IMG/VR virus record: IMGVR_UViG_3300020470_000299
Coordinates: 1-21,538 of that record
Length of the DNA: 21,538 bases
Origin: a virus
Reading direction: 5' to 3' (one strand)
The notes under the pieces were generated by a model, which saw only the letters and a program-made list of their open reading frames with translations, made no database searches and had not been told where the DNA came from. This document shows, piece after piece, positions 2,156 to 21,538 of the stretch. Within the stretch, counting starts at the first letter, position 1; every line of letters starts with the position of its first letter. The translations under genes were made by a program, and so were the position numbers.

Positions 2156-3048
2156 TAAACACCTACTCCTGCTATTTTAGTAAAAGAACCTGTTTCTCCT
2201 GATTGTCCAGGGTATTCAAAATAAGCTGCATTGTTAGTATTACCACCATTTTTACCACTTACATTACCTGTAATGCTTGCAGATATAGTACCACCTGCTA
2301 TTAATAATATTTTTCCTCCACCTGCACCACCACCACCGTAAGCATAAAGTTGTCCTGATGCATTACCTCCTGCACCATCTGCATTACAATTGATAGTTCC
2401 TGAACCTGTAATGTTTCCTCTAGCGGCCATTATAAATAAACCACCTGTACCGTGTCCACCATTTCCACCACCAGGGTTTCCACCGCCTCCACCTAAAGCG
2501 TAAGAACCTCCACCGTTACCAACTCCACCTTTACCACCATAACGTTGTGTTCCTCCAAAACCTCCGAATGTACCAGCATTACCTGCTCCACCAGAATAAG
2601 GAGAACCTTCATTAGGATTAGCAGATTTACCAGCATTAGGTGCACCTCCACCTTTTGCTGAGTTACCAGAAGATGTTGTGTAGTTAATACTATTACTAGA
2701 TGTTGTTGGCATCTTACTCATAAATGTAGTTAAATCAGATAATATTCCATTAGCATCAGTTGAACCATTACCAAAATCAGAAGTTGTATTATTAGCACTA
2801 CTTGTTTCTCCAGATTTAATCCAACCCCATACCCATGATGTATCGGCTGGTGTACCGCCATAACCACCACGAACTTTAATTGTTCCGTTTATAGCTGCAT
2901 CTCCATCTACAATAATTATGCATCCTCTACTGTCATTTGACATATTTAATGTATTACCTGCATCTAAAGTAAAAGAAGAATATTGTCTAAATACCATATC
3001 TCCATCATTACCATTTGCGTTAGTTACATTTAATGTATATGTTGCCAT
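2155..3048 (-). CDS. Polyglycine-rich tail fibre tip or receptor-binding adhesin candidate
   Basis: A 297-aa protein with Shine-Dalgarno TAGGAGAT before ATG 3048. Residues 1-65 are a beta-type N-terminal domain (TFTL and INGTIKVRGG-like strands). From about residue 130 to 275 the chain is dominated by glycine runs such as YGGKGGVGNGGGS, GGGGGNPGGGNGGHGTGG and GGGGAGGGK, separated by short hydrophobic strands (LFIMAARG, ILLIAGG). Alternating glycine runs and strands recall the polyglycine-II sandwich of T4-like gp38 and S16-type adhesins, which bind the receptor at the fibre tip. That fold is an inference from composition. It lies at the end of the fibre gene cluster, where such adhesins are expected, and is coupled to the 126-aa gene downstream. 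Confidence 0.75.
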   Translation of the reverse strand: MATYTLNVTNANGNDGDMVFRQYSSFTLDAGNTLNMSNDSRGCIIIVDGDAAINGTIKVRGGYGGTPADTSWVWGWIKSGETSSANNTTSDFGNGSTDANGILSDLTTFMSKMPTTSSNSINYTTSSGNSAKGGGAPNAGKSANPNEGSPYSGGAGNAGTFGGFGGTQRYGGKGGVGNGGGSYALGGGGGNPGGGNGGHGTGGLFIMAARGNITGSGTINCNADGAGGNASGQLYAYGGGGAGGGKILLIAGGTISASITGNVSGKNGGNTNNAAYFEYPGQSGETGSFTKIAGVGV

Positions 3049-7849: not shown

Positions 7850-8986
7850 TTAAGCTACTTTAGCTATCTTCAAATGGTATGAAGGAGGACCGAAGTCGTA
7901 TCCCATTTCCATGTAGATACCTTTAGCAACCTTTGCATCTGCATTTTGGTCAATATCTCTTACGAATACTGTTCCGTATCCAGGGATATTTGTAAAGACT
8001 GGCTGTATGAAAGCGAAGTCTAAGATAAATGCATTATTATCAGGCATGATATTAGGGTCAATAACCATCATTCCAATCTGTCCGAATGGAGTAACAATTA
8101 CGTCAATATCAATACCTGCAAGGTTTCTATCTCTAGGTAAGATAGCACCTGTGATTCCAACATTACCAGCTAATAGTTCTTTGTTAAGGTCCAAAAGTTG
8201 TTTTGGAGTTACGCAAAGAACAGGCTGTACCATTGGAGCATGTGCATCATATAATCTCTTAAGAGAGTTAGCGATAGCATCCCAAGATAATACTTGGTTT
8301 GAACCTGTAGCACCGTTACCTGTTGTACCGTTCCAGTAAACGTTTCCGCCTACATAGTCAGGAGCAACAGTATTATCAGCGTTAGCATTTAGTGAGCAGT
8401 ATTCAGAAATACCACGCATTTCTCTAGTACCTTGTCCAGGTGTAGCGTTAGCTCCATCTGCATAAGTACCGTTGAATGCGAACCATTCTACTTCTCTAGC
8501 TACTTTTTCAAGAGCCAAAGACATTTGCTCTGCAAATTCATCAACTATTGGATTACCACCGAAAGAAGCTAATAAAGTTCCTGCAGTAGTTGTACCATCA
8601 CCATCAGATGAGTTAACGGTATTAATTGGACCGCCAGCTGCATTAACAGAAAATGGATTTTGATTTTGATATGTTGCCATAGCTGTGTAAGTCATCTTGA
8701 CACCTTTATGGAATATCTGTGTTACACCTGTGTACGCAACTCTATCTCTTCCAAGATATTCAGTTGGTGCGTCACCTTCTTTACCAGCAGTTGGTTTAGA
8801 AGTTACAGTGTGTCCGTCAGCAGCTTGGATTTGCCAGAAGGTAGATTGTAAAACCTTACCTCCGTTCAAGCCACCTGTTGCAGATAAGAAAGGAGTTCTT
8901 TGACCACCTACACGAAATAGCTCTCCCGCAAAGTTATTAATCTTTTGGGAGTAAAGTGTGTCACCTGTGAGCGATATAGTCGCCAT
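7850..8986 (-). CDS. Major capsid protein, SU10-like (DUF5309 type)
   Basis: A 378-aa protein, the usual length for this fold. ATG 8986 is preceded by a near-perfect Shine-Dalgarno GGAGGT at 5 bases' spacing. Recognisable features are GGQRTPFLSATGG at residues 27-39, TQIFHKGVKMTYTAMA near 89-104, the E-loop/spine-helix segment LALEKVAREVEWFAFNGTY at 157-175, a TREMRGI segment, LCVTPKQLLDL, and a C-terminal P-domain region ending in YDFGPPSYHLKIAKV. Together these match the HK97-fold capsid family typified by phage SU10. It builds the icosahedral shell from scaffold-directed assembly. The gene follows scaffold by 34 bases and its GC is visibly higher than that of its neighbours, as expected for highly expressed genes. 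A terminator-like hairpin follows it. Confidence 0.9.
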   Translation of the reverse strand: MATISLTGDTLYSQKINNFAGELFRVGGQRTPFLSATGGLNGGKVLQSTFWQIQAADGHTVTSKPTAGKEGDAPTEYLGRDRVAYTGVTQIFHKGVKMTYTAMATYQNQNPFSVNAAGGPINTVNSSDGDGTTTAGTLLASFGGNPIVDEFAEQMSLALEKVAREVEWFAFNGTYADGANATPGQGTREMRGISEYCSLNANADNTVAPDYVGGNVYWNGTTGNGATGSNQVLSWDAIANSLKRLYDAHAPMVQPVLCVTPKQLLDLNKELLAGNVGITGAILPRDRNLAGIDIDVIVTPFGQIGMMVIDPNIMPDNNAFILDFAFIQPVFTNIPGYGTVFVRDIDQNADAKVAKGIYMEMGYDFGPPSYHLKIAKVA

Positions 8987-9020: not shown

Positions 9021-9485
9021 TTACTTATTTTGTTTTTCGTTATCCATGATGGTTAATTTAGCTCTAAGAGAATCTTTTACTGAAGCTCCTTTTAAAGCAG
9101 CAACTAATTCATCATTGATATCCATTGGTACATCTGAGTTAGAATTTGCATCAAGTGCAGCTACTCTAGACCTAGCATCATCTTGAACTTGTGGTGCAGG
9201 TTCAGGTTGTGTTACTTCCTGTACTTGACCAGTTGGTTCCCAACCATACTCGTCTTTAGCAAACTGTGAGATAGATTCTGTATCAACAGGCCCATCATAC
9301 ACTTGTTTTAACGCCTTACCGAAACCTTTGTCAGTAGATAATCCTAAAGAACCAAAGACATTGTCTATTTCCTTATCTTTATAAGAAGCTAGTTCTGCCT
9401 CAAGTTTTTTGATAGCATCATCTTTTCTATCAATTGTTTCTCTCATTTGTTTTACACCGTTATCTGGTGCATCAAATTCTTCCAT
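9021..9485 (-). CDS. Capsid scaffolding protein
   Basis: I place the start at ATG 9485 (MEEFDAPDNGVK, 154 aa). The in-frame GTG at 9497 overlaps the Shine-Dalgarno GTGGAGG (9497-9491), which is well spaced for the ATG, so GTG is not the start. Residues about 10-40 form a charged heptad-type coiled coil (KQMRETIDRKDDAIKKLEAEL), the middle is proline/glutamine-rich and probably disordered (TQPEPAPQVQDDA), and the C-terminus is a short basic helix (VKDSLRAKLTIMDNEKQNK). This architecture, small size and position immediately before the major capsid gene are those of phage scaffolding proteins, which template prohead assembly and leave before packaging. No protease domain is present. Confidence 0.8.
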   Translation of the reverse strand: MEEFDAPDNGVKQMRETIDRKDDAIKKLEAELASYKDKEIDNVFGSLGLSTDKGFGKALKQVYDGPVDTESISQFAKDEYGWEPTGQVQEVTQPEPAPQVQDDARSRVAALDANSNSDVPMDINDELVAALKGASVKDSLRAKLTIMDNEKQNK

Positions 9486-9506
9486 TTGTACCTCCACTAT
9501 GTGTTA

Positions 9507-9676
9507 ACCTATCAGACAAGACCATAGGCATCTTGCCGTGGTGCTACCTTAAACACTTGACTTATCCCTCTGGTAGCTACAAGCTATAAGTCCATTACTC
9601 TACGGTTTTTAATACGAGCTTTCAACGTAGGCTTCGAAAGCTGAGTGCAGGTCTATTAGCGGACCACGCAACGCTT
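9507..9676 (-). ncRNA. Structured leader RNA or small RNA with tandem H-type pseudoknots
   Basis: This fills the only long non-coding gap. Pairings on the minus strand, each a stem whose loop pairs with bases downstream, are as follows. PK-A: AGCG 9675-9672 with CGCT 9661-9658, and GGTC 9665-9662 with GACC 9653-9650. PK-B: AGCTTTC 9642-9636 with GAAAGCT 9623-9617, and CTACG 9630-9626 with CGTAG 9604-9600; its third loop (9616-9605) is A-rich. PK-C: GACTTAT 9592-9586 with ATAAGTC 9565-9559, and GCTACC 9577-9572 with GGTAGC 9548-9543. PK-D (less sure): GGCAAGA 9537-9531 with TCTTGTC 9521-9515 (one G-U), and CCTAT 9528-9524 with ATAGG 9512-9508. By hand count the segment is about 46% GC, well above its surroundings. 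It ends 12 bases before the scaffold Shine-Dalgarno. There is no tRNA-like domain or tag reading frame, so it is not tmRNA. I cannot match it to a named family. The cis-leader versus separate RNA question is open. Confidence 0.65.
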
Positions 9677-9682
9677 AAACTT

Positions 9683-9710
9683 ATTATACACTAATCAGCT
9701 GTAAGTCCAA
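9683..9710 (-). promoter_or_regulatory. Promoter for the structured RNA and scaffold/capsid genes
   Basis: On the minus strand TATAAT (9688-9683) is a perfect -10. It lies 16 bases downstream of TTGGAC (9710-9705), which keeps the TTG of a sigma-70 -35. The -35 overlaps the end of the 340-aa gene, whose TAG is at 9693-9691. Transcription would start about 7 bases downstream, near 9676-9675, exactly where the first pseudoknot stem begins. Confidence 0.55.
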
Positions 9711-10713
9711 TTACTTCATCACCTTTTTTAGCAGCACCTAATGTTAATCCACCTCTAGATTGTACTTCTGATTGTATACGTTGTAATCTTTGTTGTGCAG
9801 ATGTATCTCCTAATGCAGCGTCTTCTAGAGTACTTATATCTAAATCTCTACCAACAGATGAAGCTTGGGATATAAAGTCAGAAGCTGTACTGTAAACACC
9901 TTTAGCTTGTTCTTGTGTAAATCCAAGGTTTCTTAGCTCTTGGAATCTACCAAATGTTGTAGTAAATCCTCTAGATGATGCTTCAGCTTGTAGTTGTAAT
10001 GTTGCTATTTCTCCAGCTAATACCTTATCTTGTATCTTAGGATTAATTAAAGCACCAAATATAGTAGGTGCATCAAGGTTAATATTAAATCTTTCTCTAA
10101 ATAGTTTTTCTACTTCAGGTATTTGGTCTTTAACACCACCGTATACCATATCTATTCTAGCTTGAAACTCTTCAGCAGATACAGGGTCATCTGTTTCAAA
10201 ACCCGTAGCCATGTCGTCAAATTCATCTTCAAAATCTGTAAAATCTTTTATACCTACTTCAGCTAATGTTTGTTTATAAGAAGCTTTAGTACTTAAAAAT
10301 GTCATTTCATCCATAACTAATGTTCCATCATCACGCATTAATTTACCAAAGTTATCTTTCCAAGCTTTAGTTTGTCTAGTAGTACCTATAGCAACGTCAG
10401 GGTCACCTGATTTAACCCATGCTTTTGCAAACTCATCTATAACTTCATCAGGTAAAAAATTATATAAAGCTTTTGCAATAGTAGTTCCTTCTGATATTGT
10501 CCTTCCACTATCATTTGGTTTAGGACTGCTAGTTGTTTCTCCCTGATATTGTTTAGCAATACCTGGATTACCATTAGCATCTTGTCCTGGATTTATGTAA
10601 TCACCAGGGTCTAAATAAACATCATTATCTACTATCTGTCCTGGTCTAAATTTAAAAACATTAACATTATCTACTGCTTTATTTGTTGGTCTTCCTAATG
10701 TATCAAACGCCAT
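9691..10713 (-). CDS. Putative internal virion protein of 340 aa
   Basis: Start ATG 10713 overlaps the previous stop (TAATG), with GTAGGA upstream. Residues 1-70 are low-complexity with Gly, Asn and Pro. The rest is helical and acidic: LPDEVIDEFAKAWVKSGDPD near 87-106, a KLMRDDGTLVMDEMTFLSTK stretch, then SYKQTLAEVGIKDFTDFEDE, and later helices rich in Gln and Ala (LQLQAEASSRGFTTTFGRFQ). I recall similar proteins next to giant virion proteins in environmental and actinobacterial phages, but no function is known to me. It is the last gene of the large-protein block, and a promoter for the capsid genes overlaps its end. A role inside the head or as an ejection protein is inferred from context. 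Confidence 0.65.
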   Translation of the reverse strand: MAFDTLGRPTNKAVDNVNVFKFRPGQIVDNDVYLDPGDYINPGQDANGNPGIAKQYQGETTSSPKPNDSGRTISEGTTIAKALYNFLPDEVIDEFAKAWVKSGDPDVAIGTTRQTKAWKDNFGKLMRDDGTLVMDEMTFLSTKASYKQTLAEVGIKDFTDFEDEFDDMATGFETDDPVSAEEFQARIDMVYGGVKDQIPEVEKLFRERFNINLDAPTIFGALINPKIQDKVLAGEIATLQLQAEASSRGFTTTFGRFQELRNLGFTQEQAKGVYSTASDFISQASSVGRDLDISTLEDAALGDTSAQQRLQRIQSEVQSRGGLTLGAAKKGDEVIGLTAD

Positions 10714-11984
10714 TATCCTACATAACTCCTACTAGCTACTATACCTTTACCAAATGTATCCATCATTGCACCTGCTAAATCATTTTTAACTTTTTGATTA
10801 CCAGTTTTTAAACCATAATTTCTTAAACGTTCTAGTTCTTTACCACTATCATTCATTTTTATAATTTCATCAAGTAATGGGTCATTAGATTTTAAGTCTT
10901 GTCCTAATATAGATTTAGCCATTTGTTGTTTAGATGCAACAATTTGTTGCCAAGATATATCTTCATCATACATATCATAAAATTGATATCTTGTTTTCTT
11001 TAGTTTATTAATTAAACTTTCTCTAGCACCAGCATTGTTACGTATCTTACCAGCTTCTTCTGATACGTTGTATGTAGCATGTAAATGTTCTGGTAAATAT
11101 TGGTCTAATAAATCTTGTACATCAGATTCTCCTACTTTAGTAGTAGCTACTGATATACCTTCTAATGCATTTAATACACCATTATCTAACACAATATTTG
11201 CAGATGGGTCAAATATTCCATTCATTTGTTCTAATGCTTCTGCTTGTGAAAAATATCCTTTATTTGTTTGTGTTGCTAAATAATCTATAACAGATTCAGG
11301 TAGTTCACTGCCATAAGATTTAGCAGCTGTTTTTGTAAATAAATTATAGTAACTGTTGTAATTCTTTTGGTATTGTACTGGGTCAGTATATTCCATTCTT
11401 TCAGATGTAATTTGATTCTGTGTTACACCTAAAGAACTTAATATATCACCGTATGCATCTGTTTCTTCTACATTTGCTATAGCAGCTTTCATATCTCCAC
11501 CAGTACCAATCAACTCTGCAGTTAATAATGACACATACTCATCATTAGATAACAACCTAGAAGTAATTCTTTTTCTATTTCTTTTAACAGACTCTGCAAA
11601 GTTTTGTGCTATTTCTACTGCATCTGCACCTTCAGGTAAATCTAATGCACCAACAGGAACACTAACTAATACATCACTATCTAAGAAACCTTTATTAAAA
11701 TCTTCTTGTGATATATCAGGTCTTAAACCTGCATCAGCTCTTGCTTTAGCTTCTACATCATCACCATGTTTACCTTTATCTCTTTTAGGTGAGTTAGATA
11801 TATCTCCTAGTAAAAATGTATCTGGTAAATCTAATATGTAGGTGTAGTTACCCATATCCATAGCTAACTTGTAACCTTCTCCAGTTACATAAATTATTTC
11901 TTGACCTTCATAATCACCAGCAAAATTTGAATAATCAAAACCAGTTTTAGCTTCTTCTACTGTATCTACTGTTAACTCATCCAT
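10713..11984 (-). CDS. Putative internal virion protein of 423 aa
   Basis: Starts at ATG 11984, overlapping the 316-aa gene by 8 bases. The N-terminal part (about residues 20-65) has beta character (GQEIIYVTGEGYKLAMDMGN). From residue 95 on the chain is mostly charged helix, with many Asn, Gln and Lys residues and a LPESVIDYLATQTNKGYF segment that faintly resembles LPDEVIDEFAKAWVKSG in the next protein. No enzyme motif, membrane segment or signal peptide is visible. The large soluble helical make-up and position inside the five-gene block point to a packaged virion component, possibly working with its neighbours during DNA ejection. Function otherwise unknown. Confidence 0.6.
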   Translation of the reverse strand: MDELTVDTVEEAKTGFDYSNFAGDYEGQEIIYVTGEGYKLAMDMGNYTYILDLPDTFLLGDISNSPKRDKGKHGDDVEAKARADAGLRPDISQEDFNKGFLDSDVLVSVPVGALDLPEGADAVEIAQNFAESVKRNRKRITSRLLSNDEYVSLLTAELIGTGGDMKAAIANVEETDAYGDILSSLGVTQNQITSERMEYTDPVQYQKNYNSYYNLFTKTAAKSYGSELPESVIDYLATQTNKGYFSQAEALEQMNGIFDPSANIVLDNGVLNALEGISVATTKVGESDVQDLLDQYLPEHLHATYNVSEEAGKIRNNAGARESLINKLKKTRYQFYDMYDEDISWQQIVASKQQMAKSILGQDLKSNDPLLDEIIKMNDSGKELERLRNYGLKTGNQKVKNDLAGAMMDTFGKGIVASRSYVG

Positions 11985-12927
11985 CTGTAAATGCTCCCAT
12001 TGCTGCTTTTATTTTAGGCCCTAAAAAATCCATGCCTTTTTGTTCTATTTGCATAGCAGGTGACATAGTAGTTGCAGTTCCTATTTGGTCTACAAAATCT
12101 ATTAACATATCTATTTCCATACCTTCTGTATAATCTTTAGAATCTATATCAAGACCAAGAGCTTCTCCAAAAATAGCTGATTGTGCTAACTGTGCTCTTG
12201 AACTTGCTCTACCTGCACCTATAATCATATTACCAGCAAAGTTTGCAGCTTCATATCTTGCATAAGCTGCTCCTAAACCACCTAAACCAAGACCTGCTAA
12301 AACTCCTACTATAGCTGTTTCTATAGGGTCTATTATTTTACCAAGCATATTACCTATAGTTTTTACAGCACTTTTAACAGGCACATTGTATTTATCTGCT
12401 ACAACTTTAACAGCAGCTATATCATTACCACCTTTTGGTAATATACCTTCTTCACCTCTTACAGCACCAGTAGCACTTACATTTTTACCAGTTCCTTGTA
12501 AATCAGAACGTTGTGCTTCAAACAAAGTAGCTTGTAAGTCAGTATCCACCATACTGTGTACCATTCTTTTATCATCTTTCCACCAATACAAAACATTTGG
12601 GTCTATTTCTAAAGTTTGTTTTGATTTAACAAAGTTACCCTTTTCATTAACAACTCTTGGATTAAATGAAGTAACACCATCATCAAGTAATCTTAATACT
12701 TGTTCTCCAGGTACTTTCCTATATCCTTTACTTGGCATAGTAGAAGTTGCTTTAAAAACAACATCAGTATTTTTTTTACGTGTTGTAGCTGTTGATTCTT
12801 GTTTACCACGATAGTCTGACATCTTTCCTTTTTCATCTACAGTAAATACTGGTTCAGATTTATCTGCGTCAGCTTTACGTGCAGCTGCTATTAATTGGTC
12901 TAAGGGATGTATTGCTTCTTCTTCCAT
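11977..12927 (-). CDS. Putative membrane-active internal virion protein of 316 aa
   Basis: ATG 12927 overlaps the previous stop within GGAGGATAATGG, which also supplies the Shine-Dalgarno. Residues 1-165 are charged and soluble. Residues about 201-240 carry a hydrophobic, glycine-rich stretch (PIETAIVGVLAGLGLGGLGA, then ANFAGNMIIGAG) with glycines at regular spacing, like a glycine zipper or re-entrant membrane helix. The tail is helical with methionines. Phages with short tails inject internal proteins that form a channel across the host envelope, and a hydrophobic segment in one member of this block would suit that. Membrane insertion is predicted only. No catalytic motif is seen. Confidence 0.65.
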   Translation of the reverse strand: MEEEAIHPLDQLIAAARKADADKSEPVFTVDEKGKMSDYRGKQESTATTRKKNTDVVFKATSTMPSKGYRKVPGEQVLRLLDDGVTSFNPRVVNEKGNFVKSKQTLEIDPNVLYWWKDDKRMVHSMVDTDLQATLFEAQRSDLQGTGKNVSATGAVRGEEGILPKGGNDIAAVKVVADKYNVPVKSAVKTIGNMLGKIIDPIETAIVGVLAGLGLGGLGAAYARYEAANFAGNMIIGAGRASSRAQLAQSAIFGEALGLDIDSKDYTEGMEIDMLIDFVDQIGTATTMSPAMQIEQKGMDFLGPKIKAAMGAFTDG

Positions 12928-14318
12928 TATCCTCCAAACATATATGCAACCATATCATTTTGCATTTGTCTAACCTTTCTACCCTGTTCTACAGCATCTA
13001 TTTGCTTACCAAATTCATCTTCTACCTGTTGGGCCATTATTTCTTGTGGAGAATCTGTACTAAACATAGATAAGTCTATTACTTTTTCTGCACCATATTG
13101 GTCAGCTAATGCCTGTCTATCTGAATCTAATTCTAAATATTCTGGTTGTGATTGCATAAAGTTATAATCTTGTAACTGTTGTGCTTTACTTCTAGCTTGT
13201 GCAAATGCTATAGAGTAACTATCAGCAAAGTTAGTTGACCATTCATCTAGTTCTTCTTCAGTTGCACTTCTACCTAATTTATTTTCAAAGTATGCATCAA
13301 CCATATCTTCTAATGCAGATTTACTAGGTGGTATAAATTCTTCAGCTAACTCCCTAGCTATCTCTGCTTCTTGTACTTCATCTAAAGTATCTTGTTTTTT
13401 AGCAAGTTCTTTTAATGCTTCGTTAAATATATTTCTATGTATATCCCACTCACCGTAAAGGTTCTGTGATTCACTAAAATACACAGGGTCTTTTGCAGAT
13501 ATTGATTCATATAACTCAGTGCCTGGTACAGCATGCATATTTTTATCTGCCCAGTTCATTACATACATTATTGATGCACGTAATTTTTCTGACATTTCGC
13601 CTTGACTTTCAGCAAAATAATTATCTGGTACTAAATTATTGTTAGTTAAAAAGTTTTGAAATTGTAGTATTTCGTCAGTTGTAGCATAGTTATCAAGTAT
13701 GTCACTTACTTTTGTACCTTTAAAGTGACCAGCAAATGGCATAAGAGGTTGCTTACCATTAATTAAAACTGCAGTACCATCATCATTATATGCAGGTCTA
13801 AGTATTGTTTCACCTGTCATTAAGTTAAAGTATGCTTGTGCTTGTATTTGAGCTTCTAACTGTTCCTCTTCAGGTTGACTTGCAACCCAATTAAATATAT
13901 CTTCTTCTGTAGGAGCAAAACCAAATATTGTATTTAACTCGTTATATATACTTTGGTCAATACCATATGTTTCTAAGTCTTTTGTTTGTGCATCTTTACC
14001 AGATACAGCTGCAGGAACTTGTGATTGAAACTCTTGTTTACTTGGTTGTGTTGTAGTTTTAGCTGCTTCTACTCTTTCTTCTACAGTAGCAACAACTTCT
14101 TTAGCATTAGCTTTTTGTGTAAATGGTTTACTATTCCACCAACTTACTACATCTTCAGCTTGTTCATCTGTGAATATAACTTCTGTTTCAACGCTTGGTA
14201 ACAAACCTTCTTCTACTGCAGTTGATAAAAATTCAGTCCAAGATATAGGAGCTCCTTCACCAACAGCTTTATCCATCTGCATTGTTTTCCAAAGTTTTTT
14301 AAATAATGCTAAATTCAT
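12927..14318 (-). CDS. Putative internal virion or ejection protein of 463 aa
   Basis: ATG 14318 lies just after the giant gene's stop (TAA 14322-14320) with GAAGGATAAA in front, so a real Shine-Dalgarno marks the start. The protein is acidic and glutamine-rich, almost wholly helical, with ENKLGRSATEEELDEWSTNF near residue 345, a short GR.AT.EEL..W motif I have seen repeated in phage structural proteins. The first helix (LFKKLWKTMQMDK) is amphipathic. No membrane span, signal peptide or enzyme motif is visible. It follows the 1925-aa gene directly and precedes the glycine-zipper protein, so I read these as one assembly. Alternative: a chaperone or capsid-filling protein. Confidence 0.65.
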   Translation of the reverse strand: MNLALFKKLWKTMQMDKAVGEGAPISWTEFLSTAVEEGLLPSVETEVIFTDEQAEDVVSWWNSKPFTQKANAKEVVATVEERVEAAKTTTQPSKQEFQSQVPAAVSGKDAQTKDLETYGIDQSIYNELNTIFGFAPTEEDIFNWVASQPEEEQLEAQIQAQAYFNLMTGETILRPAYNDDGTAVLINGKQPLMPFAGHFKGTKVSDILDNYATTDEILQFQNFLTNNNLVPDNYFAESQGEMSEKLRASIMYVMNWADKNMHAVPGTELYESISAKDPVYFSESQNLYGEWDIHRNIFNEALKELAKKQDTLDEVQEAEIARELAEEFIPPSKSALEDMVDAYFENKLGRSATEEELDEWSTNFADSYSIAFAQARSKAQQLQDYNFMQSQPEYLELDSDRQALADQYGAEKVIDLSMFSTDSPQEIMAQQVEDEFGKQIDAVEQGRKVRQMQNDMVAYMFGG

Positions 14319-14319
14319 T

Positions 14320-17300
14320 TTATCCTTCTGGGAAGTAGTCTAATACTTCCTGGTCATCTCTATATAACTTTAACAGAACTCCTGTCCATACACCCCAGAA
14401 CTCAGGGTATTCTTCAATTATTCCATTAGCTGCATTAGCAACATAAATCCTCAAAGCTTTAGCTCTAGGGTCCTCTGATTGTAACCACCAATCAGGATTC
14501 TTAGTACTAGAGTATTCAGTAGATAGTGCTGATGCATAATCCCAATGTTGCATTATAGCAGCGAAACCTTTACCAGAGTCAAGCTCTAATATTGCTGGAT
14601 TAACTAACCATTGTTGTTTCATTTCATTAAATATATCTTCAGTAGAAGGTGGGTTCATTTGACCATATTCTTCTGATTGAAAACCAGGTAATGCAAGTTT
14701 TAATTCGTTTCTATAACTACGTTTAAATATAGTTTTTTGTTGTGCAGTTAATGTTTCTAGTGCATCTATTTTCTTTGTAAAAGTTTTATATCTAAAGAAA
14801 CCTAATGTATCATTGACAGCTCTACGATATTGGTCAGGACTTAACAGTGTTTTTTCTACAACAATATCGTCATATCTTTTTTCTTCATAAGGATTATCTA
14901 TGTTTAAGTAATAACCACTGATTTTTAAACTATCAAATATTTCTGGATTATCTTTTTGAAAGTTTTGTACTCTAACACTTGTAGGTTGTTTACCTACTTC
15001 TGATTGTGACCTAGGGCTCATCATGTATGGATGTTCTAATCCATATAGTTCTAGATATTCATTGTATGTAGCTATATCGTTACCATTATTTTTTTCTCTA
15101 ATTCTTATATATTCTTCATACAAAGCAGCTTGTCCCCACAAATGTCCTTGTTTATCTTCTACAAAAAACTCTGGTTTAAATCCAGTAGGACCAAAGAACT
15201 GCACCATAAACTCAAATGCAAACAAAGTACCTGATTTTTCTTTAGCAAACTCTAAGTAAGCAAGTTCTATTTGTCCTTGGTTTAAATTAGCTTTAGATGT
15301 ATTAGGTGCAACTATATCTAAATATTTATCTAACTTACCAGATTCATACAATCTCTTAGGTTCTCCTGCAGATACACCCCATCTAAATACATCAATAGTT
15401 TTCTTAGCACGCATCTTTTCTACTTCACTACTATTTTCTGTAATATATTCAAAGTCTTCTGGTTCTAATAACATTGCTCTACCTTTTTTATATACAGGAG
15501 ATACAGCAAATACATCAGATACTTCTTCTGGTGGTGGGAAATCACCAAACAAAAACTTCTCAAATTCATTAGCCCAACCATATTTAGCACCTAGTTTTGT
15601 TGAAGCTGTTTCTATTTTTGGTAATACTTTGTCTATACCAAATGCAACTAATGAGTTAGGACCAGGTACAAATCCTTGTGCTAGTAAGTTAACACCTTGT
15701 AATTGTCCTCTAGGTGATATTTGTACATTTTGTTCTCCATCTGTTAACTCATCATCAAATATTAAGTTAGACATAAAACCACCAAATGGATATACAAAGA
15801 CATCTCTAGTTGGGTCCATAGGGTCAGGTGATATAAATCCATCTTCTGAGCTAGCACCTAAAGCATCTGCTGCTCCACCACCACGTACACCTAAATGAGC
15901 TTTTCTTAATACATAAGGGTTTTCTCCAAATAGCTGTCCCCATGTTTGAAATACCTCAAACCATACTTCAATAAATGGGAATATATTCACAAGCTTGTCA
16001 GATAGTGTATGTCTTTGTTTTGTATCGTATAATAATTCTTTAACACCAGCTAATGCATAAGCTTTAGATTCTGTATTCATTACTTCATAATTTGATATTT
16101 TTCCTGGTTTATATAATTTATTAAGACCAACCATTTCTTCTATAATATCTTTTGGTACACCAGCTTCTTTAGCTTCTTTTATAAATTTACTTCTTAATCC
16201 TTTATCAAAATCTTTAAATCTATCTTGGATATACATCCATCTAAATTGTTTAAATGTAGTTGAACGGTTTAAATAACCAATAGGTTTTGTCATTAATCTA
16301 TCAAATATTGCTTGATAAGCATTATCCATCATATCTTCTACTTGTCCTAAGAAGTTTTGTGGTGTCATGTCTTCAGCTTTATCTACAATTTGTGTAAGAG
16401 TACCTGGGTCAATACCATCTGTTTTGTTATAATATTTAGCTAATTCATCAGTAATTTTTGATTTTTTAAACTTTTTAAGAAATACATCTTCTGTACTAAA
16501 AAATTCTACAATGTCTTTTTTATTACTACCTGTTGTACCAAACTTTGTAAGTTTACCTTCAGCTACCATTGTTCTTATAGCAGAGTTACCACCATTACCA
16601 CCTTTACGTAATGCATATGTAAATGCACCTTTTTTATTTTTAACTGCATCTTTAGCAATATCAAATGTACCACCTGATATAATTCTTATTCTAGATTCTA
16701 AGTATTGTAAATGTTGGTCTAAATCTCTATGGTTATCATCTATAAAGTTTGCGGCTTTTTTACCTTTGTATCTTATAAATTGCAATCTTGCTTCTCTACC
16801 TGCAGGACTAGCAATCCATTCTGCTAATTCGTCTGAACCATACCCATGTCTAGCTACTGCTGCTGCTAATGGGTCACCTCTTAATAATCTAAGTTCGTGA
16901 TATACAGATTCTACTATTTGTGGTTCAGTTAATTCTGATGTTTTTCTACCTAAGTATTCTACGTATTTATTATTTTTAGGTTTATTTGCACCACCTGCCA
17001 TATCTTCATATCGCATAGTTTTTTGCATAGCTTCCATTACTTCTTCTTGCATTAAGAAATCAACAGCATCTGGATTGTATTGTGCTCCTTTATATTTACT
17101 GAAAGGTAAAGATTCTAATATTTTACCAACACGTGAATTAGGATTATGTGCAGCTAACCATTGAAAGTATTCATATGGTCTGTTATAAATACTAGACAAT
17201 CCTTTAACTGCTATACGTGCTTGTTCTTCCATAAATACACGAGTAAAGAAAGCAGCTCTCATTAATACAAAAGGTTTAAATAAATTTCTTGTATAAAAAG

Positions 17301-20097
17301 ACATAACATTGCTTACAAAGTTATTCTCTAATCTTTTAACATTTAATATTCCATCATCAAATGGATTAGGAATAGCATCATCTGCTTTGTTCCATGACAA
17401 GTGTTGTGTTTTATATTTAAGATAATTTTTACTATCAGAAAGAATACTTGTAGCTTTAAACTGATTATCTGGATATGCTTTAAATAAAGGTCCTAATGCA
17501 CGTTCTAACAATCTATAATCTAACAATGGTGCAATATTGTCTTGCATTTCACTAAACATAGAACCACTCATAGTAGTTACAGCATTACCTAGTTCATCTG
17601 TTGCGTAACCTAATTCATTTATTTCAAATCCTCTATAGTTAGAACCAATGTTAGGAAGTATGTTTTTGTCTGCATCAGTTGCATATATTTTCATTTTATT
17701 AAGACCTTCAAACATTTTTGCTGCATGGTCTGCTATATACTCATGATTACCACCTCTAGCTCTTACCATCTTTAAATCTCTAGAAGCTTGTTGAAAAGCA
17801 AAATCTCTATATGCAGGTTTATCTAATGGATTAATTGCCATAAAATCTTTCATAATTTTATTAGCAGTATCTGCGTCATAACCATTAATTTGCAAATGAG
17901 ATGACAATTGTTTATACCCAACATTTAAATTATTAAGAGGTATTCCCATGTCAGGAACAACTCCTAATAACTTTCTGTAATAAGGATTGTATGTAGAGTT
18001 AAAGTTAGAACTAAAACCTAAATATCTTTCAAACTTAGGTGCACCTGCTAAATCTAACTTTTCTAATGCATATGATGGTGTAACGTTTTCTAACTTAGCT
18101 AAAGCTGATGCTTTATCAGATACTGCATCCATAGTATCAATAACAGCTTCATTACCTACCTCTACTAATTTAGATGGTTCTTTTCTAGATTTTCTTATAG
18201 GAAATACACCTTCACGTAGTTTTCTTGTTTTTTCACCAGCCCAACTACCAAATGTTCTGTAGTTAGCATTAGGGTTTAAACCAGTAGATTGTAAAAATTT
18301 ATTTACTGCAAGTGAACCAGTCTTAGGTAACATACGTCCAGGTAATGTATAAGGTACCATTTGTCCAACATCATTACGTATTGCATAACCTGATGATGAA
18401 ATCATATCATCAAACATACCTTGTACTTTTCTCCAATCAGTTTCTGCTACAATATCTGATTGAACTTGTGCAGGTAAATGTCTAGTAATTGGATTATTAC
18501 TAATTAAATACAGATTATCTTCTTCTGCTAACGCTTTAAAGAACTCAATATTAGTATTGTTGTTTAATATCTCATCTTTTGTAGTTTGAAAGAATTTAGG
18601 TACTCTACCAAATAAAGTATGTTCTTTTTTAATTTTTCTAAGAGCTTTCTTAGTAGTGCTTATATCTTTACCAATTGTTTGATTTGTTATCAATTGACCT
18701 GCATTATTAACTAATTTACTTAAATTACCTGTACCAGTAGCTCCATCAATCTCTGGTCCTACTTCTTCTAAAATATTATCTGCTAAGTTTTTGCTACTTA
18801 CTCGTACACGTTTTTTACTAAACTTAGTGCCTTTAACTAATGCACCTTCATCTAATAATTCCATAGCAGGATTAACTCTACGTAATCCTTTACTAACGTT
18901 TTTAATTCCTTTAATACCTTTACCAGCTAATAATTCTGGTGCAATTTGATATGCAGCATCAGTTAAACCTGACATAACATTAAAAGCTTTAGAGCCAGGT
19001 GCAAAGACTTCAGCTGCAGTTACTCTACCTGGTGAGTATTCAAGCAATATATCTCTATCTGCCCACTCAGGTCTAAAGTAATCTTGTTCTGATTGTCCTG
19101 CCCAAAAGAATCTTTGTTGTGCTCTACCTGCAAAAAAATTAATTTTATTAGGATTAAATGCAGAAGTGTAATGTATTTCGCCATTTTCATCAAAATTCTT
19201 TAATGGAGCTCCTATATTGCTATAAATAAAATCTCTAGCTTGGTCAGGTGACATTCCATAATCTGTAGTTAATGCAACATAATAAGGTGTTTTTTCTGCT
19301 TTTACAGATTCTAAAGTAATCTTTGTACTTCTATCAAAGTTTAATGGCTTACCTTCTGATACAGCTCTAAACATAGCAGCAAGTACAGGTTCCCCACCCA
19401 TCTTATGTGCTTCTTGTATCATATCAATTTGTTGTCTAAGTTCATCCATTGTTCCAAGTTCTTGTCCTAATCCAGACACTTGAGTACCACTAAGGTCTAT
19501 TTGCAACATATCTTGTGCTTTTTGTGGTGTATAACCTTTTTTAAGTAATTTATCGTATGACCTTAAATCTCTTAGATATGCTTGTGACCTACCTACTTTC
19601 ATAGGTTGTCCAGGTGATAATGCATTTACAGCAGAACCTATGACAGACCATTTACCTGATGGACCAACTGTTTGAAAGAAAGCATCTAAAGCAGCAAATG
19701 CCCATACACCATATTGAACATCTCCTGGTTTAGCTCCTCCTGGCATTAATCCACCTGTCCATAAGTCACCCCATGTCATCTTCATATTGTTTTCTACATG
19801 GTCATATTGATATCTTTGTTGTAATTCCTGCCATAACTTAGCTTCGTTATAAAGTTTATTAGTTCTACTAGACTGTGCTATTTCTTTAACAGCTTGATAT
19901 TCAGGTGGTATTCCTAAAATACTCATACCTAATGCAGTACCTGTATCTAATTCAGTAGGATACTTTTCTAGATTTTCTAATACTTGTTCTGGATTAGTTT
20001 GTAATAAAGCATTATATTGACTTGCTTGTTGTTCTAGTTGTCTACGTGAATTAAGTATGTCATAATACTCATTTCTATCATTGAGTATAAATGCCAC
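14320..20097 (-). CDS. Giant 1925-aa virion protein, probable internal/ejection protein
   Basis: A single unbroken frame of 5.8 kb. GTG 20097 overlaps the previous stop (TAGTG) with TAGGA upstream, which sets the start. The protein is mainly helical with many Lys, Asn and Tyr residues. Residues about 939-959 contain a hydrophobic, arginine-flanked helix (FKPFVLMRAAFFTRVFMEEQ). Residues about 1365-1440 contain IFPFIEVWFEVFQTWGQLFG and then VFVYPFGGFM, which recall the conserved core of large polyvalent or internal virion proteins in environmental phages (from memory). I see no lytic transglycosylase, protease, ADP-ribosyltransferase or polymerase motif. T7 gp16 (1318 aa) and N4 vRNAP (about 3500 aa) show that giant packaged proteins exist in short-tailed phages. 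The role given here is inferred from size and position. Confidence 0.75.
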   Translation of the reverse strand: MAFILNDRNEYYDILNSRRQLEQQASQYNALLQTNPEQVLENLEKYPTELDTGTALGMSILGIPPEYQAVKEIAQSSRTNKLYNEAKLWQELQQRYQYDHVENNMKMTWGDLWTGGLMPGGAKPGDVQYGVWAFAALDAFFQTVGPSGKWSVIGSAVNALSPGQPMKVGRSQAYLRDLRSYDKLLKKGYTPQKAQDMLQIDLSGTQVSGLGQELGTMDELRQQIDMIQEAHKMGGEPVLAAMFRAVSEGKPLNFDRSTKITLESVKAEKTPYYVALTTDYGMSPDQARDFIYSNIGAPLKNFDENGEIHYTSAFNPNKINFFAGRAQQRFFWAGQSEQDYFRPEWADRDILLEYSPGRVTAAEVFAPGSKAFNVMSGLTDAAYQIAPELLAGKGIKGIKNVSKGLRRVNPAMELLDEGALVKGTKFSKKRVRVSSKNLADNILEEVGPEIDGATGTGNLSKLVNNAGQLITNQTIGKDISTTKKALRKIKKEHTLFGRVPKFFQTTKDEILNNNTNIEFFKALAEEDNLYLISNNPITRHLPAQVQSDIVAETDWRKVQGMFDDMISSSGYAIRNDVGQMVPYTLPGRMLPKTGSLAVNKFLQSTGLNPNANYRTFGSWAGEKTRKLREGVFPIRKSRKEPSKLVEVGNEAVIDTMDAVSDKASALAKLENVTPSYALEKLDLAGAPKFERYLGFSSNFNSTYNPYYRKLLGVVPDMGIPLNNLNVGYKQLSSHLQINGYDADTANKIMKDFMAINPLDKPAYRDFAFQQASRDLKMVRARGGNHEYIADHAAKMFEGLNKMKIYATDADKNILPNIGSNYRGFEINELGYATDELGNAVTTMSGSMFSEMQDNIAPLLDYRLLERALGPLFKAYPDNQFKATSILSDSKNYLKYKTQHLSWNKADDAIPNPFDDGILNVKRLENNFVSNVMSFYTRNLFKPFVLMRAAFFTRVFMEEQARIAVKGLSSIYNRPYEYFQWLAAHNPNSRVGKILESLPFSKYKGAQYNPDAVDFLMQEEVMEAMQKTMRYEDMAGGANKPKNNKYVEYLGRKTSELTEPQIVESVYHELRLLRGDPLAAAVARHGYGSDELAEWIASPAGREARLQFIRYKGKKAANFIDDNHRDLDQHLQYLESRIRIISGGTFDIAKDAVKNKKGAFTYALRKGGNGGNSAIRTMVAEGKLTKFGTTGSNKKDIVEFFSTEDVFLKKFKKSKITDELAKYYNKTDGIDPGTLTQIVDKAEDMTPQNFLGQVEDMMDNAYQAIFDRLMTKPIGYLNRSTTFKQFRWMYIQDRFKDFDKGLRSKFIKEAKEAGVPKDIIEEMVGLNKLYKPGKISNYEVMNTESKAYALAGVKELLYDTKQRHTLSDKLVNIFPFIEVWFEVFQTWGQLFGENPYVLRKAHLGVRGGGAADALGASSEDGFISPDPMDPTRDVFVYPFGGFMSNLIFDDELTDGEQNVQISPRGQLQGVNLLAQGFVPGPNSLVAFGIDKVLPKIETASTKLGAKYGWANEFEKFLFGDFPPPEEVSDVFAVSPVYKKGRAMLLEPEDFEYITENSSEVEKMRAKKTIDVFRWGVSAGEPKRLYESGKLDKYLDIVAPNTSKANLNQGQIELAYLEFAKEKSGTLFAFEFMVQFFGPTGFKPEFFVEDKQGHLWGQAALYEEYIRIREKNNGNDIATYNEYLELYGLEHPYMMSPRSQSEVGKQPTSVRVQNFQKDNPEIFDSLKISGYYLNIDNPYEEKRYDDIVVEKTLLSPDQYRRAVNDTLGFFRYKTFTKKIDALETLTAQQKTIFKRSYRNELKLALPGFQSEEYGQMNPPSTEDIFNEMKQQWLVNPAILELDSGKGFAAIMQHWDYASALSTEYSSTKNPDWWLQSEDPRAKALRIYVANAANGIIEEYPEFWGVWTGVLLKLYRDDQEVLDYFPEG

Positions 20098-20483
20098 TAT
20101 ATATTCCTATTGTTAATAATCTCCAATAATGTAGGTGTTGGATTAATTTGATACAAAGCTTGCAGTATAGCATCAGTATTATCAGCTATAACAGTAGGTC
20201 CAGCACCAGCTCCTATAGGTTGTCCTTGTGTAACAGGTTCCCCTGGTCTTTCTGTTGGTGCAAACACATTGGGTGCTACAGGCATTGGATTTTGTTTTGG
20301 TAACGGAGCAGCCTGTTGTTGTTCTACAAATGCTTTATTTGCACCGTAATCAGCGTCAGGTAGCCTTCTAAGAGGTTGTTTACTACTTCCTGGGCCACCA
20401 TCAGTTCTTTGTCCACCTTGTGGTGTAGCTACAGCTGCAGGTTTTTTTGGTTGTCTATACCCACCTCTACGATTCTTTGCCAT
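20097..20483 (-). CDS. Proline-rich, probably disordered protein next to portal
   Basis: A 128-aa protein with AGGGAG and ATG 20483, overlapping the small gene upstream by 17 bases. The N-terminus is very basic (MAKNRRGGYRQPKKP) and the middle is Pro/Gln/Gly-rich (QQAAPLPKQNPMPVAPN, ERPGEPVTQGQP). Only the end (ILQALYQINPTPTLLEIINN) looks helical. Such a make-up suits a head-inside or portal-associated adaptor that binds DNA or another protein. I have seen similar short proteins between portal and giant proteins in environmental phages, without a known role. Confidence 0.7.
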   Translation of the reverse strand: MAKNRRGGYRQPKKPAAVATPQGGQRTDGGPGSSKQPLRRLPDADYGANKAFVEQQQAAPLPKQNPMPVAPNVFAPTERPGEPVTQGQPIGAGAGPTVIADNTDAILQALYQINPTPTLLEIINNRNI

Positions 20484-20628
20484 AAAACTCCCTAGTAATC
20501 AAAACTATTATTCCTGGCATAGGAGTAATAATTTCTGTTACTTGTTCAGATAAAATATCTATCTCGTCTGTTACACCGTATTCGCTGTACATTAAATCCC
20601 AGAACTCTGAATCAAAATAATCTTGCAT
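20467..20628 (-). CDS. Small acidic protein of 53 aa downstream of portal
   Basis: I choose ATG 20628, one base after the portal stop, giving a protein that begins MQDYFDSEFWDLMYSEYG. Two longer in-frame starts lie inside the portal gene: ATG 20664, with AGGTGG at 5 bases' spacing and therefore a serious rival (65 aa), and GTG 20673. The protein is very acidic with a hydrophobic C-terminal strand (MPGIIVLITREFYG). It overlaps the next gene by 17 bases. Its position suggests a head or portal accessory. No family recognised. Confidence 0.6.
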   Translation of the reverse strand: MQDYFDSEFWDLMYSEYGVTDEIDILSEQVTEIITPMPGIIVLITREFYGKES

Positions 20629-20629
20629 A

Positions 20630-21538
20630 CTATAATCCGAATGCTTGTGCCATTGTTGGAACATTGTTACCACCTAACTGTTGTTGCATCATTTGTTGTT
20701 GTATCATAGCTTCTTCTTGTGGTGACATCTGTGGCTCTTGTGGAGTATAGAACTGTTTCATAATTTCAGTTACAGCTCCTGGATACTCATAAATAGCTAT
20801 AGCAGCCATTGTAGCTGCAGGGTCACCTTGTGCAGACCTAGCTAAAATACTATCAAATAAAACACCTTCTGCTTTATTTTTTCTAATGCGTTCTTGTACT
20901 TTTGCTATATTTTCTAAACCATCAATATTATCTTGTAAGGTTTCTACGTCTATAACACCTGCTTGTAACAATTGCAACCCAGTCACAATTTTTTGTGGTT
21001 CATCAAAACCAGCCATAACACCATAGATACGCCTTGTTCTAAAGTCGCCACCTATGTCATTAAGTGGTTGATAGTTCTCACTAAAAGCAGAACCGTTATA
21101 GTAACCTACAATAGGTTTCTTAGTTACACCTGTTGAATAAGATAATACAACGTCCATTTCTAAACGCTTCTCATCCATAGCTACCATGCCTGTTTTTATA
21201 ATATCTCTGTATTCCGATATCATTAATGACATTGTGCTATTTAATTCTGATAATCCAGCACCAGTAACAAAACTGTTTGGTGATTGACTATCATCAGTTA
21301 CAGGGTAACCACCTACCATACGCAACTGTCTTTCCAACCTATCTATTTGTTGGAACAATTGATATGGAATATTATTCATTGGTTTAGAAACTTGTGTACC
21401 TGGAGCTAGATAATTAACAGCAAATCTGCCTTTTCTATATTGTCCTGATTCTATCTCTCCAGATATGTTAGTTTCTGTAAACACAGAATCTTCCATTGCA
21501 ATTGCAGACATTATGTTAATCTTTGCCATCATAGCCAT
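20630..21538 (-). CDS. Portal protein, C-terminal 302 residues (runs off right edge)
   Basis: The frame is open to the right edge, so the methionine at 21538 is probably internal; portal proteins of this kind usually exceed 500 residues. Visible are RLERQLRMVGGYP near residues 69-81, a long helix SEYRDIIKTGMVAMDEKR that fits the portal stem/wing helices, a IGGDFRTRRIYGVMAGFDE segment, and an acidic Gln/Met-rich tail (EEAMIQQQMMQQQL). The pattern matches portal proteins of tailed environmental phages as I know them. The dodecameric portal is the DNA channel at one capsid vertex and docks the terminase. It begins the structural operon here. Terminase genes would lie to the right, outside the window. 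Confidence 0.8.
   Translation of the reverse strand: MAMMAKINIMSAIAMEDSVFTETNISGEIESGQYRKGRFAVNYLAPGTQVSKPMNNIPYQLFQQIDRLERQLRMVGGYPVTDDSQSPNSFVTGAGLSELNSTMSLMISEYRDIIKTGMVAMDEKRLEMDVVLSYSTGVTKKPIVGYYNGSAFSENYQPLNDIGGDFRTRRIYGVMAGFDEPQKIVTGLQLLQAGVIDVETLQDNIDGLENIAKVQERIRKNKAEGVLFDSILARSAQGDPAATMAAIAIYEYPGAVTEIMKQFYTPQEPQMSPQEEAMIQQQMMQQQLGGNNVPTMAQAFGL

Follow-up and report, generated by a model that had tools for sequence, protein, structure and literature searches.

A giant protein gene within an apparently exchangeable cassette of an uncultured marine phage, and its probable role in DNA ejection

The giant gene and its setting

The DNA analyzed here, hereafter the window, is a stretch of 21,538 nucleotides (positions 1 to 21,538 of the IMG/VR record IMGVR_UViG_3300020470_000299) from an uncultured marine virus of bacteria, and our subject is the largest open reading frame (ORF) listed in it, hereafter the giant, a single frame of 1925 codons on the minus strand that opens with GTG and has no internal stop. 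The giant is the second of six consecutive genes (g128, giant, c1, c2, c3 and c4) that, judging from comparison with related sequences, appear to be exchanged as a block of about 10.8 kb inside a conserved shell of packaging and capsid genes. Taking the window and its longer relatives together, the gene order is TerL, portal, g128, giant, c1, c2, c3, c4, a scaffold-like gene, the gene for the major capsid protein (MCP) and then the head-tail genes (Table 1).

A preliminary description, made from the sequence alone, had presented this gene as the largest of the window, intact, free of repeats and frameshifts and therefore under selection, and these points largely hold. The frame is uninterrupted, and the two short arrays that a survey of tandem repeats detected in the window (2508-2536 and 20679-20707) both lie outside it. 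Three successive searches recovered homologues of the giant at 38 distinct loci, at 59 and at no fewer than 79, the last figure being counted among the best 80 of 98 confirmed stretches. Against the four closest relatives tested, the ratio of nonsynonymous to synonymous substitution rates (dN/dS) is 0.041 (L015), 0.074 (L003), 0.089 (L001) and 0.103 (L009), and against more distant ones it is 0.195 (L004) and 0.311 (L013); the giant is under purifying selection. Complete marine giants are of near-constant size, 1896-1998 amino acids (aa). In one contig (L219, 4941-6877) the frame looks broken, with 329 codons followed by a second frame of at least 310 codons; L219 is alone in this respect among the portal-selected contigs compared (the best 80 of 135), and the break could be either an assembly error or a real lesion. 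The same description called the product a virion protein; the protein is indeed large, conserved and encoded in the virion module, and its virion status is presumed from gene position. It passed over the minus strand, the membership in a six-gene cassette, the counterparts that Streptomyces podoviruses and Planktophila phages have in the same position and the cassette exchange, to which most of this text is devoted.

Table 1. Features of the window discussed in the text
Feature	Position	Strand	Remarks
Portal protein, C-terminal part (cut by window end)	20630..21538	-	Conserved left flank; G007 copy 592 aa
Short ORF of ~53 codons between portal and g128	20467..20628	-	Unlisted; similar across several giant classes (11-locus alignment)
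g128, 128 aa, first cassette gene	20097..20483	-	phrog_8200, function unknown, E 2e-12
Giant, 1925 aa, putative principal ejection (internal core) protein	14320..20097	-	Core ~1255-1530 aligns with Streptomyces/Planktophila phage giants
c1, 463 aa, cassette partner	12927..14318	-	Co-varies with giant
c2, 316 aa, hypervariable slot	11977..12927	-	No domain found in the window's version
c3, 423 aa, cassette partner	10713..11984	-	Co-varies with giant
c4, 340 aa, last cassette gene	9691..10713	-	phrog_8424, E 2e-15; homologue of Immanuel3 gp13
Conserved non-coding element with covarying hairpin	9498..9690	-	Right cassette junction
Scaffold-like protein, 158 aa from GTG	9021..9497	-	phrog_7813, unknown function, E 1.7e-9; right flank
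MCP, SU10_MCP	7850..8986	-	PF17236, E 9.9e-41; phrog_1328; right flank

Apparent exchange of the cassette within a conserved shell

The case for exchange rests on contigs selected by their portal genes (the best 80 of 135), each of which, where more than 1 kb follows the portal, starts a large ORF there. The reference for comparison was the record G007, the giant of which is identical to that of the window at the resolution shown. Contigs whose portal and TerL are, respectively, 88-91% and 87-96% identical to those of G007 encode giants that are 24-34% identical to its own. By pairwise identity among 26 representatives (L117 left out), the giants fall into at least four groups, namely, group A, which includes that of the window and whose members are at least 41% identical to one another, group B (L205/L197/L218), group C (L180/L185) and group D (L165/L191/L174). 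Over 54 non-redundant loci, from which L117, an E7-type locus that had entered the giant set via a weak portal match, was removed (as it was from the whole-length profile comparisons below), the Spearman correlation between portal and giant identity is 0.056. With giants compared over their first 900 aa, the extreme pairs combine portals 98.6% identical with giants 44% identical (L197/L214) and portals 94.3% identical with giants 22% identical (L063/L175).

The same pattern is apparent when all genes are compared with one another in a matrix of pairwise identities over 50 contigs. Here, as in the 54-locus comparison and the Mantel tests below, contigs with portals or giants cut by contig ends were excluded, and overlapping pieces of one contig were collapsed by identical giant sequence; the pair numbers vary by gene. 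Within the cassette, the Spearman coefficients are 0.94 for giant and c1 (990 pairs), 0.91 for giant and c3 (465) and 0.73 for giant and c4 (465). Within the shell, the portal correlates with TerL at 0.85 (300), with g335 at 0.88 (78), with the scaffold-like gene at 0.77 (190) and with MCP at 0.69 (91). Between the two blocks, the values are 0.08 for portal and giant (630), 0.01 for portal and c1 (496) and 0.27 for giant and scaffold. Mantel tests concur, giving p = 0.001 for both portal-TerL (n=26) and giant-c1 (n=33) and p = 0.24 for portal-giant (n=37). Once near-identical contigs are collapsed, the portal-giant correlation is -0.06 (n=26), and 53 of the 89 collapsed pairs with portals at least 90% identical have giants below 40%.

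The edges of the exchanged segment can be located by following nucleotide identity along pairs of contigs. On the left, the identity of L199 and L214 is 92-100% from TerL through the portal, then drops to 79% in the 200-base step where g128 starts and to 56-74% farther on; in L063/L174 and L053/L191 the drop, from 80-98% to about 46-65%, occurs in the same place. On the right, L035 and L228 (MCP 94%, giant 34%) are 52-65% identical through c4, 81% in the step at the c4 stop and 93-99% thereafter, except for a single 75% step within the MCP gene, and L037/L228 behaves likewise, but with 73-77% in two later steps. The fall of identity at the start of g128 and its recovery at the end of c4 define the exchanged unit as g128-giant-c1-c2-c3-c4, positions 9691-20483 of the window. 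The class B and D genomes compared bear this out, being at most 54% identical to the window phage, or unmatched, from g128 to c4 and 76-94% identical to it in TerL, portal, scaffold, MCP, g110, g335 and g654. Thus, the six genes appear to move as one block within a conserved shell.

The variable c2 slot

Within the cassette, c2 behaves differently from its neighbors. Across the relatives, c1 (378-495 aa), c3 (392-454 aa) and c4 (316-354 aa, with one of 442) are stable in size; c2 ranges from no ORF of 120 aa (L070, L076 and L078) to 959 aa. Furthermore, c2 changes alone among close relatives: in L003, the giant is 99% identical and c2 52%, and in L031, the giant is 96% identical and c2 22%. 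In a scan of 33 c2 proteins at E <=0.001, the domains cpYpsA (SLOG; 6 proteins), DUF7831 (4), NUDIX (4) and NADAR (1) were detected, none of which is found at that threshold in the window's own c2. SLOG, NADAR and NUDIX are described as members of a viral NAD/ADP-ribose network for which virion packaging has been argued (PMC9503650). For DUF7831, no paper on the domain was found in the literature searched.

The flanking genes and the right junction

The two shell genes nearest the right edge are well conserved around foreign cassettes, the scaffold-like protein being 76-83% identical in contigs that carry them and MCP 85-86% identical in those two genomes of classes B and D that extend as far as its gene; g128, at the left end of the cassette, is 41-57% identical in such contigs. 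The scaffold-like gene has an alternative ATG four codons in, preceded by GGAGG, and occupies the position of genes annotated as scaffolding protein in Dennebes and Vorvolakos. In tblastn searches, the portal of the window matches annotated Streptomyces phage portals with a best E of 4e-14 and phage F5 with 3e-21.

Between c4 and the scaffold-like gene lies a non-coding element of about 190 bases, with a mean column identity of 87% over 24 sequences, which starts with TGTATAATA and extends to the ribosome-binding site of the scaffold gene. Compensatory changes affect 6 of its 41 predicted pairs, and one hairpin covaries, with a C-G to U-A change in 6 of the 24 sequences; the total covariation term is small (-0.47), the folding energy is not low relative to shuffled sequences (z -0.30), and comparison with Rfam yielded no credible match.

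Relatives and counterparts in cultured phages

Related records reach 43.4 kb. In one of 43,361 bases (G005), the giant exits at the end of the record and resumes at its start, residues 1400-1430 being present in both pieces, and a terminal repeat of 123 bases is present in another, of 42,658 bases (G003). In the early region of a further contig (L046, 9820-11950, minus strand), a MoxR-like AAA ATPase (AAA_5, 9.3e-21) lies beside a 472-aa protein of phrog_33218. A WhiB gene is absent from all nine related records (9/9).

TerL matches phrog_38 (1.2e-67), and in tblastn searches TerL and portal each retrieve 31 records, which are 29 Streptomyces phages and the Planktophila phages E7 and F5. In the Streptomyces phage Immanuel3 (Beephvirinae), the order is portal, small genes, the 1648-aa gp09, gp10, the peptidase gp11, the glycosylase gp12, gp13, tRNAs, a small protein and MCP, and it is repeated in all six further Streptomyces phages compared. 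One of these phages, Abafar, is reported to be a podovirus with a very short tail by microscopy (PMC11536984). The similarity of TerL and portal, together with a gene order in common with Abafar, suggests a short tail for the window phage as well.

At the last cassette gene, the two groups share more than gene order. Immanuel3 gp13 matches phrog_8424 at 4.6e-183, and hhalign of c4 against gp13 gives P 4.7e-9 versus 0.62 for the reversed control. For c1 and c3, no firm counterpart emerged among the profiles of gp10 to gp13, the best P values being 0.0089 (c1) and 0.0095 (c3). For the giant, we employed a composite core profile of 18 giants (7 from Streptomyces phages, 1 from F5 and 10 of the E7 type), which aligns with residues 1126-1575 at P 3.1e-6 (score 54.0) and with residues 1251-1700 at P 4.8e-6 (52.6); among 28 segments, forward and reversed, those that overlap the core in part score 38.7 and 31.3, and the best non-overlapping one scores 25.1. 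The core of the giant is thus probably homologous to those of the Streptomyces and Planktophila phage giants. The latter two are connected by the F5 giant, which matches phrog_10618, the family of the Streptomyces giants, at 3.1e-13.

Immanuel3 gp11 and gp12 contain, according to Pfam, NlpC/P60 (3.6e-30) and SLT (2.5e-5) domains, respectively. These two proteins and the 442-aa protein of E7 and the 364-aa protein of F5 have a common C-terminal region (P 1.5e-9 to 8.5e-6; loci compared, L105 12251-14865, L106 14011-15339 and L158, reverse complement 27800-28894) that was not found in the marine proteins and that may serve to dock the cell-wall enzymes of the cassette.

The Planktophila phages LanE43AprE7 and LanE43AprF5, from one host and one reservoir, are reported to contain an 8-kb island of hypothetical proteins (PMC10202952). 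Their DNA is 96.4% identical up to position 8372 of E7 and 97.7% identical from position 16922, with no alignment in between, and this island is the giant-protein cassette (L106 8372-16922 versus L158 reverse complement 22068-30336). The block encodes giants of 1764 and 1711 aa, the 442- and 364-aa proteins, and proteins of 530 and 482 aa in E7 and F5, respectively; the last pair is 26% identical and the two giants have no convincing similarity. On its flanks, the portals are 96.6% identical and a 399-aa protein in the MCP position 99.0%.

Searches for family and fold of the giant

The giant has no significant match in Pfam, PHROGs or PDB sequences. A scan of 13 homologues against Pfam and PHROGs with hmmscan returned few, weak, scattered and mutually inconsistent rows; a profile of 13 sequences retrieved from PDB one irrelevant row (E 0.33), and the single protein retrieved nothing. 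Neither the giant nor its distant homologue L103 has a tblastn match among 50,697 phage records; 117 pattern matches in bacterial genome contigs include no relative, and the phrog_10618 model leaves the window giant unmatched. The earlier view that the protein lacks a recognizable catalytic motif is in line with these searches, in which no enzyme or tape-measure family was matched (Pfam, PHROGs, PDB sequences).

Structure prediction and comparison, a check named in the preliminary description, was run on halves of the protein. Foldseek against PDB gave no row at E <=0.001 with these poor models, and, given the quality of the models, we assign no fold to the giant. The best VIA-align hit (Z 5.4 over 76 residues) consists of helical rows and is uninterpretable. 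Against predicted viral proteins, the N-terminal half gives no row at E <=0.001 and the C-terminal half gives five with low TM-scores (A0A1B0XU68_2, 1.3e-14; A0A6J5NKM1_2, 4.9e-14; A0A1B0XUG3_2; A0A6J7X282_2; A0A1B0XTR5_2), two of which come from uncultured Caudovirales phages and are named as uncharacterized proteins, the other three being unnamed; these are likely relatives and were not used further.

The two landmarks previously proposed for a contact core do not survive closer inspection. The supposed hydrophobic helix at residues 939-959 coincides with a conserved motif, YTRNxFKPxVLMRxAFFTRVF (residues 938-956), whose best 19-residue hydropathy reaches 0.98 and which includes K and R; by this measure it is not a membrane helix. 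The supposedly aromatic-rich block at about 1365-1440 holds 8 F/W/Y per 40 residues, when the maximum of the giant is 11 and shuffled sequences average a maximum of 10.9, and its composition is therefore ordinary. The most conserved 50-residue bin of the giant, residues 1351-1400 (0.74), does fall within the piece that aligns with the other phage giants, and the FPFxEVWFEVFQTWG block there is the one that had been described as aromatic.

Proposed role and alternatives

So what could a protein of this size, position and mode of inheritance be doing? The reading that we favor, and consider probable, is that the window phage is short-tailed, that the giant is the largest of its ejection (internal core, pilot) proteins and that the cassette is exchanged as a set. 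Under this scenario, the giant would be made late, together with portal, scaffold and capsid protein, and would be packed in the head at the portal vertex with c1, c3, c4 and the variable c2; it would leave ahead of or with the DNA and help to form a path across the cell envelope. All six genes would be inherited together and, through recombination at the conserved edges, exchanged together, with terminase, portal and capsid unchanged, conceivably because the parts of the cassette must fit one another, and the exchange might be driven by superinfection exclusion, by envelope differences or by defense. That the protein is packaged and ejected and forms a channel is inferred, as are the short tail and the cause of the exchange. 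As is characteristic of ejection proteins, the gene lies in the morphogenesis block near portal and scaffold and belongs to a co-inherited set more variable than the shell (giant-c1 0.94 and giant-c3 0.91 versus portal-giant 0.08).

Several observations weigh against this reading. The split between cassette and shell is incomplete, with correlations of 0.53 for giant-MCP (210 pairs), 0.55 for giant-g335 (171), 0.42 for portal-c3 and 0.55 for portal-c4 (210), and, among contigs holding both genes, 0.59 for TerL-c3 and 0.73 for TerL-c4 (91 pairs). Most of the contigs are metagenome (IMG/VR) assemblies. The homology of the giants is graded no higher than probable because the core segment was picked after earlier looks, the Streptomyces-only core scores 33.2 (P 0.0017) against the giant, and with the E7-only core nothing exceeds the reversed controls. 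Whole-length profiles give P 0.35 and 0.026 (reversed 0.27) against the Streptomyces giants, 0.36 and 0.045 against the E7-type giants and 0.30, not above the reversed control, against that of F5. Searches of PDB sequences match the giant to no ejection protein, its AlphaFold models have a mean pLDDT of 50.2 (N-terminal half) and 58.8 (C-terminal half), and the marine cassettes tested yielded no peptidoglycan hydrolase. Finally, MCP retrieves by tblastn 22 other records, from mycobacteriophages and from propionibacterial and bifidobacterial phages, and none of the Streptomyces podoviruses or of the two Planktophila phages, which is why the short tail is argued from TerL, portal and gene order.

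A more elaborate version of the ejection scenario, which we put forward tentatively and regard as rather doubtful, would have the cassette of about 10.8 kb be an interchangeable injection cartridge, built around a giant delivery protein and swapped whole at its edges, with the shell constant; its c2 would be a payload slot refilled with domains acting on nucleotides or NAD/ADP-ribose that are delivered with the DNA to disarm defense. The conserved edges would then be the short ORF beside the portal and the structured non-coding element before the scaffold gene.

The alternatives differ mostly in where the giant would act. It might be a head-packaged effector or anti-restriction protein (P1 DarB-like, polyvalent) that functions in the cytoplasm and not as a DNA channel; the turnover of the cassette indeed resembles an arms race, and some c2 alleles carry NAD/ADP-ribose domains that are reported to be often virion-packaged (PMC9503650). 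We nevertheless deem this unlikely, given that Pfam and PHROGs detect no polyvalent or other effector domain in giants of any allele class tested, that the near-constant size of 1896-1998 aa is unlike that of modular polyvalent proteins, and that the giant co-varies tightly with c1 and c3. The position of the giant, shortly before the scaffold and capsid genes, would suit a procapsid assembly factor, scaffold-like or core, that is not delivered to the host; such a factor, however, should track portal, scaffold and capsid, and the correlations of 0.08 with the portal and 0.27 with the scaffold make this quite improbable.

Slightly less probable still is a tail component (tape-measure protein or tail-tip hub) of a long-tailed phage, in favor of which one can cite Foldseek alignments to tape-measure proteins, all of them very weak (E >=0.02), and the fact that the closest MCPs by tblastn come from other actinophages. 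The giant, however, matches no tape-measure family in Pfam or PHROGs, its slot is between portal and scaffold, outside the tail genes, and an observed podovirus is among the relatives defined by TerL, portal and gene order. That it is a virion enzyme diverged beyond recognition, for instance, an N4-like virion RNA polymerase, we consider very improbable: packaged giant RNA polymerases are reported to exist (PMC12633501) and the giant is without an assigned fold, but neither the single protein nor the 13-sequence profile finds a polymerase in PDB (in the copy searched, the presence of the N4 enzyme was unverified), nor does Pfam. Least credible of all is that the mismatch between portal and giant is an artefact of chimeric assembly. 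Nearly all the contigs are IMG/VR assemblies, but the mismatch recurs in many of them (53 of 89 collapsed pairs), its edges coincide with borders between genes on either side, and the same pattern is seen in the isolates E7 and F5.

Implications and comparison with known systems

No prior description of this cassette or of its exchange was found in the literature searched, subscription journals being mostly outside it. What appears to be new is the giant family in ejection-type cassettes, the measured exchange of whole cassettes and the payload-like slot. Ejection proteins are known to vary, and the manner of the change is seldom visible. Here, one shell lineage combines with at least four giant classes and the edges coincide with gene borders, so that the proteins that would enter the cell can be handled as one exchangeable set; the driver of the exchange, be it superinfection exclusion, envelope type or intracellular defense, thereby becomes testable. 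The c2 slot amounts to a list of candidate counter-defense proteins of short-tailed phages, and a reading becomes available for the hypothetical-gene island of the first phages to be cultured for the Nanopelagicales, which are abundant in freshwater.

Among well-studied systems, there is a parallel in organization with gp14, gp15 and gp16 of T7 and gp7, gp20 and gp16 of P22, which, according to published accounts, likewise form a co-adapted set, encoded in the morphogenesis region and more variable than the shell (PMC8954989, PMC10883804). In P22, replacement of gene 16 or gene 20 singly by that of Sf6 is reported to yield no plaque formers and replacement of both together to yield plaques, and foreign ejection genes to alter sensitivity to the exclusion protein SieA (PMC10883804), a precedent both for exchange in sets and for its benefit. 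These proteins differ from the giant in that PDB sequence searches found no similarity between them. The gp16 of T7 has about 1318 aa, and the window giant is larger. The virion RNA polymerase of N4-type schitoviruses is described as likewise giant, contained in the head and ejected along with partner proteins (PMC12633501); the window giant is half its size and has no polymerase match. The c2 alleles with SLOG, NUDIX, NADAR and DUF7831 domains beside packaging genes are reminiscent of reported polyvalent head-packaged effectors and NAD/ADP-ribose domains (PMC5512222, PMC9503650), from which the giant itself differs in lacking any such domain in all classes tested.

The nearest counterparts are to be found in the two groups of actinobacterial phages. 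The Beephvirinae giants (Immanuel3 gp09, Manuel gp10, Stella gp10 and Abafar_00008, among others; phrog_10618, function unknown) occupy the same slot between portal and scaffold/MCP, are of similar size at about 1640 aa, and are followed by four genes, the last of which is homologous to c4. They differ in having no pairwise similarity to the window giant by tblastn, in partners gp11 and gp12 with NlpC/P60 and SLT domains, neither of which was detected in the marine cassette, and in a tRNA cluster where the marine phages have the non-coding element. In the Planktophila phages E7 and F5, two genes follow the giant, compared with four in the window phage; the island nonetheless lies in the same slot as the window cassette, and there, too, the block has been replaced between near-identical phages.

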